In this document: positions 27,737 to 28,690 of the stretch, in pieces | How the letters are laid out: each line of letters begins with the position of its first letter | Numbering within the stretch: position 1 is the stretch's first letter | NCBI GenBank assembly: GCA_018055415.1 | Contig: JAGPHP010000005.1 | Location: forward strand, 1-43,080 | From: Breznakibacter sp. | Lineage (GTDB): Bacteria; Bacteroidota; Bacteroidia; Bacteroidales; Marinilabiliaceae | DNA length: 43,080 bases | Reading direction: 5' to 3' | Program-made: the position numbers and the translations under genes | The notes under the pieces: generated by a model | The model's database searches: none | The model's input: only the letters and a program-made list of their open reading frames with translations | What the model was told of the DNA's origin: nothing

Positions 27737-28036
27737 TTATATAATTTTCAACATTTCTGGATATTGTCGACAATCCCATATTGTATGGATAATGACTGTA
27801 GAAGTATTAAATTCGTAGAAAACGATATAATTTTCCACAACCACTCCTCTTACTAATTCCATATCTGTTTTTAATCCAATAGTTGGATAAATGGATACCA
27901 GTTTTAACTCTTGATTTATTTTATTAAAAAGTTTTTGCGAATACGCTTTACTTTGATTTCTATCTGAGTAGAACTGAAGTATTTCGAAAAGTTTTTTCCT
28001 AGCCTTATTAGACCAAACTATTTTTCGTTTAGCCAT
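27737..28036 (-). CDS. ParE/RelE-family toxin
   Basis: The 99-residue protein has the ParE-like toxin pattern: an N-terminal strand KIVWSNKARKKLFEILQFY, central KLFNKINQELKLVSIYPTIG, then VRGVVVENYIVFYEF and the ending IHTIWDCRQYPEML. The WDxRQ(N)P tail is typical of this branch. Members either inhibit gyrase (ParE) or cleave mRNA (RelE); sequence alone does not decide which. The start overlaps the antitoxin by 19 bases, a normal antitoxin-first layout. The locus sits among repeats, consistent with an acquired module. Confidence 0.88.
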   Translation of the reverse strand: MAKRKIVWSNKARKKLFEILQFYSDRNQSKAYSQKLFNKINQELKLVSIYPTIGLKTDMELVRGVVVENYIVFYEFNTSTVIIHTIWDCRQYPEMLKII

Positions 28037-28254
28037 TTTGCGACCTCGCTATCTAACAAATCATGATCTATAAAATTCAATTTTTCAATCTCCATTTTCG
28101 ATTCAATAATCTCATTACGTTGCTCCGATGAGAGATGAATAACATTAGTACTCGTTTTAGAATCAAGAATCGTCTCAATAGCTTTTAGGTAGGAGATGTC
28201 GTTAATCTCGCTTATTCGATGTATTAAAACTTCCTTTAATTCAATTGTAGTCAT
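28018..28254 (-). CDS. Antitoxin of the ParE-type pair
   Basis: This 78-residue protein, taken from ATG 28254, precedes and overlaps the toxin. The N-terminal MTTIELKEVLIHRISEIND is a short helical region seen in small Bacteroidota antitoxins. The C-terminal DHDLLDSEVAKWLNEK is an amphipathic toxin-binding-type tail. No ribbon-helix-helix or HTH motif is evident. Upstream ATG 28266 or TTG 28269 would add 4-5 residues. The assignment rests on gene order, size and partner. Confidence 0.75.
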   Translation of the reverse strand: MTTIELKEVLIHRISEINDISYLKAIETILDSKTSTNVIHLSSEQRNEIIESKMEIEKLNFIDHDLLDSEVAKWLNEK

Positions 28255-28338
28255 AGTAGAAGGCATCAATATTACAAAAATACAAATATTTTAAAAGCAA
28301 CGATCTCTTTACTAGAAAGAAATAAATCATAAAAAAAA

Positions 28339-28355: not shown

Positions 28356-28495
28356 ATTAGTTACCCGCGCTGCAAGTAGCTTCCTTTTGGCGGTTTAAGG
28401 GTTGCCGCGGTGATTTTCGAGAATAAGGGATTTTGAGAGCATCAGGGTTTTACAAGTGGCGGAGCGGGTGAGGGATAGAAGTGGAAAGCCCGTAA

Positions 28496-28560
28496 AGGTG
28501 GCCGAGAGAAAGGGGCTAGAGACGCACAGCGGTGCGTCTGTACGAAGGGAATGGCCACCT
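28496..28560. repeat. Nested-hairpin repeat module 1
   Basis: Outer arms AGGTGGCC (28496-28503) and GGCCACCT (28553-28560) are perfect complements. Inside lies GGGGCTAGAGAC, an inner hairpin (AGACGCAC at 28520-28527, loop AGCG, GTGCGTCT at 28532-28539) and TCTGTACG. It is GC-rich compared with the genome. An incidental open frame across it has no protein-like features. Confidence 0.75.
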
Positions 28561-28589
28561 GCGGACTTGGAACGGATAGCCCGACGGGT

Positions 28590-28656
28590 AAAAGGGCAAT
28601 ATAGAAGGGGGTTAGAGACATGGCATGCCATTTCTGTACGCAGGGTTTGCCCTTTT
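28590..28656. repeat. Nested-hairpin repeat module 2
   Basis: Outer arms AAAAGGGCAA (28590-28599) and TTGCCCTTTT (28647-28656) are perfect complements. The core GGGGTTAGAGAC...TCTGTACG is shared with module 1. The inner palindrome is different: AGACATGGCA at 28616-28625 against TGCCATTTCT, with one mismatch. Together with module 1 it fills most of the 436-base gap 28255-28690, which has no gene. Confidence 0.75.
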
Positions 28657-28690
28657 GGCCGGCACCCCAAAAAGTGAATATCTCGGGGGA

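Follow-up and report, generated by a model that had tools for sequence, protein, structure and literature searches.

A Flavo-1-related intergenic repeat with REP-derived arms in Breznakibacter sp., possibly a DNA element that folds as a single strand

What do the two nested hairpins in the window, a stretch of 43,080 nucleotides from a Breznakibacter sp. genome, belong to? The two modules, at 28496-28560 and 28590-28656, form arms A and B of a single 202-nt element (28466-28667, plus strand) that is built as a three-way junction and closed by GGGTG/CACCC. Our best reading, to which we give an even chance, is a dispersed DNA repeat whose top strand folds when single-stranded and whose arms are REP-derived. 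The first-pass annotation placed the modules, arms and palindromes correctly, all its quoted sequences being found in the window, and recognized the hairpins as such, but took them for free-standing units, which they are not: both lie within the stem formed by 28466-28470 and 28663-28667.

The element is Flavo-1-like in its form B, with a closing stem P1, a P2 core bearing arm A, and a stem P3 bearing arm B, all on the plus strand. Its extent rests on a covariance model match at 28459-28674, on the DNA fold of the exact stretch and on conservation, which across copies begins sharply at P1 and has its 3' limit at about CGCCCAAAT. P1 pairs GGGTG (28466-28470) with CACCC (28663-28667), covaries, is formed in the DNA fold and is followed by CCAAAT in most copies. 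The P2 core joins its 5' half GGGATAGAAGTGGAAAGCCC (28472-28491) to its 3' half GGACTTGGAACGGATAGCCC (28563-28582) across arm A; it contains conserved GNA/GNA internal loops and lies in the region that Rfam in evalue mode aligns to the Flavo-1 core (28472-28585, 26 bits). Arm A (28496-28560), apparent in the sequence and in the DNA fold, has the outer stem AGGTGGCC (28496-28503)/GGCCACCT (28553-28560), common to several copies of the same genome, and a putatively REP-derived palindrome, TAGAGACGCACAGCGGTGCGTCTGTA (28517-28542), found by pattern search. P3 with arm B (28585-28661) covaries and has the outer stem AAAAGGGCAA (28590-28599)/TTGCCCTTTT (28647-28656) and a second such palindrome, TAGAGACATGGCATGCCATTTCTGTA (28613-28638), one mismatch off the strict pattern TAGAGAC-N-GTCTSTA. 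Both modules share the motif GGGG(C/T)TAGAGAC..TCTGTACG. Their inner palindromes, described earlier as complementary, are indeed paired but not fully so: each has a G.G mismatch (TAGAGAC/GTCTGTA), and the second module has one further mismatch.

When the top strand of 28466-28667 is folded as single-stranded DNA, the minimum free energy structure consists of P1, the P2 core, arm A and P3 (-39.1 kcal/mol; z -4.2, better than 200/200 dinucleotide shuffles), which is exactly the junction supported by covariation; the complementary strand forms both arms, but neither P1 nor the core. The RNA fold is likewise better than 200/200 dinucleotide shuffles (z -3.3), and that of 28450-28680 yields the P2 core and the outer stems of the arms, together with a closing stem that differs somewhat. 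As the non-Watson-Crick GNA/GNA loops are conserved on the top strand only, counted in forms A and B, a single-stranded top-strand fold appears more likely than a symmetric cruciform.

Copies of the element are intergenic and numerous. A blastn search with the stretch against its own genome (a 2.65 Mb assembly of 295 contigs, 88% complete) returned 24 matches, and a covariance model built on 15 full own-genome copies with shortened arm interiors returned 36 at E <= 1 and 32 at E <= 0.001. With about 32 intergenic copies and a fold beyond all 200 shuffles, the early description as structured, repeated and non-coding holds. The repeat probably breaks the assembly, making the own-genome copy number a lower bound; several copies are located at contig ends (C163, C167, C123, C33, C152). 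Matches to the model are patchily distributed over 12 of 41 genomes, own included, with 38 copies in one relative; by HemN, the closest relative among named genomes is a Marinilabiliales MAG (64% identity). At gathering thresholds, Rfam gives no match in the window; in evalue mode, the core is Flavo-1 (RF01705, model positions 9-71) at 26.0 bits, below the gathering cut-off of 42, which sister copies in the own genome (46.1 bits) and in relatives (61.5 and 42.2 bits) exceed. The RF01705 model covers the P2 core and arm A only, leaving P1 and arm B outside, and the P2 helix with conserved GNA/GNA loops, a Flavo-1 trait, is present in the window copy. A search with RF01705 matched 42 of 296 Bacteroidota genomes, often with 15 or more copies each; the phages and plasmids searched had no match to the element. 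In Flavobacteriia the element exists in two forms, a short form A (TAGCCCCGAT..AGCGGGAAATAGC) and a P1/P3-bearing form B as in the window, with both present in one genome (G142), and the sequence of the core is conserved across Bacteroidales and Flavobacteriia.

The genome-wide collection of copies that the first-pass annotation had proposed does reveal covariation. Among the 15 own copies, 87.5% of cells are paired and 79 are double changes, where shuffles give 71.2% and 27; in an alignment of 57 copies, fitted to the structure and composed of related rather than independent sequences, the values are 90.5% against 68.7% and 361 against 118. P1 occurs as GGGTG/CACCC, GCGTG/CACGC, GCGTT/AACGC, GTGTT/AACAC and GCGAG/CTCGC, and 11 of the 12 pairs of P3 covary. 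However, the argument first drawn from the modules themselves, that independent sequence with preserved pairing argues for selection on structure, is not supported for the arms, which are swapped as whole cassettes between own-genome copies and so keep their pairing without compensatory mutation. Two pairs of loci (L062/L073 and L048/L057) have 100% identical arms A with arms B of only 58-61% identity, and in a third (L047/L056) arm B is 97% and arm A 32% identical. Cassette exchange thus explains part of the apparent covariation, and since the arms are contiguous and travel whole, their differences alone are no evidence of compensatory change. The halves of P1 and of P2 are far apart, so that their covariation does count as such evidence; it is in these discontinuous stems, overlooked in the first reading, that the genuine covariation sits.

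At a syntenic position between two genes that we take to be yihY and DUF2147 from their reading frames, the element lies at the same place and in the same orientation in nine Flavobacterium species, and is absent or reduced to a remnant in others. At these orthologous positions, arms have been replaced wholesale, one species bearing a ATTGCGAG..CAAT palindrome. A single stem pair is seen there as T-A, A-T, C-G and G-C. In one genome (G342, L260) the remnant AAGCCCTTTATAGC retains only AAGCCC..TAGC, suggesting an internal deletion. A 17-kb Flavobacterium region compared for empty sites turned out to be rearranged. Elsewhere, a shortened copy near position 1500 of L321 (contig C72:4794) has lost arm B and most of P2, its REP-bearing arm A running almost straight into the GGCACGCC end.

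Could the pairing be maintained without any selected function? In the strongest rival scenario, which we nonetheless regard as unlikely, the element is a neutral repeat whose pairing is kept by template switching at quasi-palindromes and by gene conversion of arms. Template switching predicts strict Watson-Crick pairs without wobble intermediates (PMC8794818), as found here, and the wholesale replacement of arms between paralogues and between orthologues is equally in line with this scenario. However, template switching would make perfect pairs, whereas the mismatched GNA/GNA loops of P2 persist phylum-wide, which argues against it as the whole story; the maintenance of the core sequence from Bacteroidales to Flavobacteriia and the distance of up to 200 nt between the P1 halves also speak against a neutral repeat.

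The second rival is a structured non-coding RNA, as which Rfam files Flavo-1, with the covariation reflecting selection on RNA folding. The strong fold and the covariation would fit such an RNA, as would the conservation of GNA/GNA loops on one strand, such loops being common in structured RNAs. However, RNA helices tolerate G.U pairs and do not tolerate A.C, and the pairing of the element makes no such distinction, with 32 G.T against 26 A.C cells overall, 6 against 10 in P1 and the P2 core, and 3 against 9 in P3. For RNase P RNA from 28 genomes of the same clade, the counts are 244 G.U against 15 A.C cells, on pairs picked by a program that favours G.U. In 58 Flavobacteriia copies of form A, all four Watson-Crick pairs occur at each of two stem positions, 116 of 116 cells being Watson-Crick. 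Given the lack of a G.T excess over A.C and the 116 form-A cells without a single wobble, pairing is kept as strict complementarity, a DNA signature, although template switching could also remove wobble. Flavo-1 was listed as a probable RNA by Weinberg et al., 2010 (PMC2864571), and in F. psychrophilum some of its matches coincide with transcribed 5' regions; matches there are, however, indistinctly sense or antisense to transcribed regions, and many fall outside them (PMC9723704).

The surroundings of the copies likewise give little hold to an RNA. Neighboring genes occur in all four orientation classes, and the copies share no upstream promoter-like sequence, nor does a conserved promoter or terminator travel with the element. 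A cis-regulatory RNA or terminator role was rejected because the orientation relative to genes is mixed. Terminator-like hairpins follow about 7 of 29 own copies within some 15 bases (L047, L051, L061, L067, L072, L073, L049); they usually belong to the convergent neighbor gene and may simply reflect insertion sites. The window element itself lies past the end of a CBM9-like gene, 24 bases from its stop codon, and, at a distance of about 200 bases, upstream of a small gene that forms a pair with a ParE toxin gene; on the minus strand at 27737-28269, directly upstream of the element, the ParE-like toxin gene is overlapped by an 83-aa ORF in the antitoxin position, which has no Pfam match. On balance, we consider an RNA improbable.

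Where do the palindromes at the arm tips come from? A strand-wise search of the own assembly for TAGAGAC-N-GTCTSTA gives 26 matches, about half of them inside the element. Outside it, the palindrome mostly reads GTAGAGAC..GTCTCTAC, with GTAG on both strands, and two stand-alone GTAG..CTAC copies at contig C75 (L322) accompany an ORF, the first lying some 75 nt upstream of it and the second within it, in frame. This ORF (L322:1499-2193) matches NCBIfam NF047646 (E 2.6e-17, 63 bits, below the equivalog cut-off of 80), TnpA-REP of PDB 4er8 (E 2.4e-7) and Pfam Y1_Tnp (16.2 bits, below the cut-off of 23), and contains the motifs NHVH, WQ and YIQTNP; judged by its sequence, it is a relative of the REP-associated tyrosine transposases (RAYTs). 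The cognate transposase that the first-pass annotation had suggested looking for thus exists for the inner palindrome. The Y1_Tnp Pfam search missed this RAYT and pointed instead to an unrelated IS200-like gene on contig C212 (L029), flanked by a different repeat family; the repeats after it read CACCGTAGGTGTTGACC.. and AACCCCCAGAT..ATCTGGGGG.

Within the element, the palindrome differs from this form. Of 12 embedded strict matches, 11 read (C/T/A)TAGAGAC..TCTGTA with the G.G mismatch and altered feet, the sole canonical one being in arm A of a copy on contig C163. The two palindromes of the window have 5' feet CTAG and TTAG and the 3' foot GTAC in place of the GTAG foot of REPs. C75 supplies the cognate RAYT with flanking and inserted copies that is expected of REPs; the 26 strict-pattern matches are few for a class that typically exceeds 100 copies. 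In relatives, TAGAGAC occurs in 0 of 26 element copies. Most simply, arm tips of the own lineage would have received canonical REPs, an altered form of which later spread along with the arms. An ordinary REP pair (REPIN) and nothing more is very hard to credit: inner palindromes do match the REPs beside and inside the RAYT gene, and there is precedent for REPs inside other palindromes (PMC3733652), but both modules belong, as arms, to a larger conserved element, copies of which lack these palindromes in its own genome and in relatives and so contradict this reading; moreover, nearly all strict-pattern embedded palindromes lack the canonical GTAG/CTAC feet. Of the alternatives initially named, RNA, cruciform or REP element, the REP part stands with respect to the palindromes, but a plain REP does not, the palindromes being nested in a Flavo-1-like element, and an RNA is disfavored by the G.T/A.C comparison.

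Other palindromes were met in passing. Arm A tips in one Flavobacteriia genome (G096; L120, L134, L142, L151) carry different ones, e.g. GGTCATTTCGACTACGCTCAATGACC, and the capture of palindromes by arms may be general; a comparison of arm tips from three Flavobacteriia genomes (G096, G245, G142) with their own RAYT flanks gave no informative shared k-mers, arm extraction being noisy. In the own genome, contig C52 (L320:1500-1600) has a short tandem cluster of TAGAGAC palindromes, spaced by about 22 bases, outside any Flavo-1-like element. At the RAYT loci of 12 genomes, the only element found was a degenerate Flavo-1-like one that has lost its P2 core (L322:1394-1460; 14 bits, E 0.16), located just upstream of the C75 gene.

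How, then, would a dispersed DNA repeat work? We envisage a Flavo-1 relative some 200 bases long, located between genes, in which a second arm and a closing stem complete a three-way junction, with palindromes at the tips of its long arms presumably derived from GTAG-type REPs that have their RAYT gene in the same genome. When the top strand becomes single-stranded, e.g. during replication, it would fold into the junction, and this folded DNA shape would be what is kept and copied, whole hairpin arms being swapped between copies. An enzyme that processes single-stranded DNA may recognize the fold and disperse the element; the RAYT is tied to the palindrome. Support for the DNA reading comes from the copy number and patchy distribution, from covariation, from the fold of the top strand, from presence and absence at the syntenic Flavobacterium locus, from arm swapping, from the lack of a wobble excess, from the mixed gene orientation and missing promoter, and from the RAYT/REP link of the palindrome. 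Against it stands that strand bias, expected if lagging-strand single-stranded DNA were the substrate, is weak or absent: GC-skew sampling of three chromosomes gave 12/17, 22/34 and 15/27 for one sense. Also against it, no movement of the element was seen, the 29 own copies have no target duplication, and no linked transposase was detected for the Flavo-1-like core.

What does this imply for Flavo-1? It entered the catalogue of small-RNA families in 2010, and Bacteroidota genomes are annotated with many copies of it as an 'sRNA'. Tentatively, and at slightly less than an even chance, we propose that it is no RNA: it would be a DNA element found throughout the phylum, with its single-stranded fold as the defining feature, which takes up and swaps host-specific palindromes, including RAYT REPs, as interchangeable arm tips. 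If its covariation follows DNA rules, Flavo-1 annotations change; if this is true, it also calls for general caution, as strong covariation in a dispersed repeat would be no proof of an RNA. The comparison of G.T with A.C is cheap and applicable to other high-copy Rfam families, and the nesting of RAYT REPs offers a natural system for studying how REPs choose palindromic targets.

Among known systems, the element comes closest to Flavo-1 (RF01705), with which it shares a homologous P2 core and arm A, an irregular helix with 3x3 internal loops, the restriction to Bacteroidota and the many copies per genome; it differs in the added P1 closing stem and arm B, in the 26 bits of the window copy against the cut-off of 42, and in the lack of a G.U excess. 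Since the window copy falls below that cut-off and its palindrome feet are altered, we file it neither as an RF01705 member nor as a REP; it is a Flavo-1-related variant with REP-derived arms. Of the two features that define a MITE, it has a short terminal inverted repeat, P1, but no target-site duplication in 29 copies. A likeness to the ends of IS200/IS605 single-stranded transposons would hold if the top strand is recognized as folded single-stranded DNA without target duplication; unlike these, the element is not linked to a transposase, and the repeat that flanks the IS200-like gene on C212 is a different one. The double-foot GTAG REPs of RAYT subclass 2.4 (group 4) resemble the stand-alone palindromes of this genome, both in their GTAG/CTAC feet and in lying upstream of and in frame inside the RAYT gene, as described for that subclass, whereas the embedded palindromes are mostly (C/T/A)TAG..GTAC with a G.G mismatch, their number is low for REPs and the surrounding element is no REP. 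REPs at the center of other inverted repeats have been described in Anabaena variabilis, Thermomicrobium roseum and Halothiobacillus neapolitanus (PMC3733652); the central position within another inverted repeat is the same here, but the surrounding repeat is a multi-stem element that is conserved in its own right and broadly distributed.
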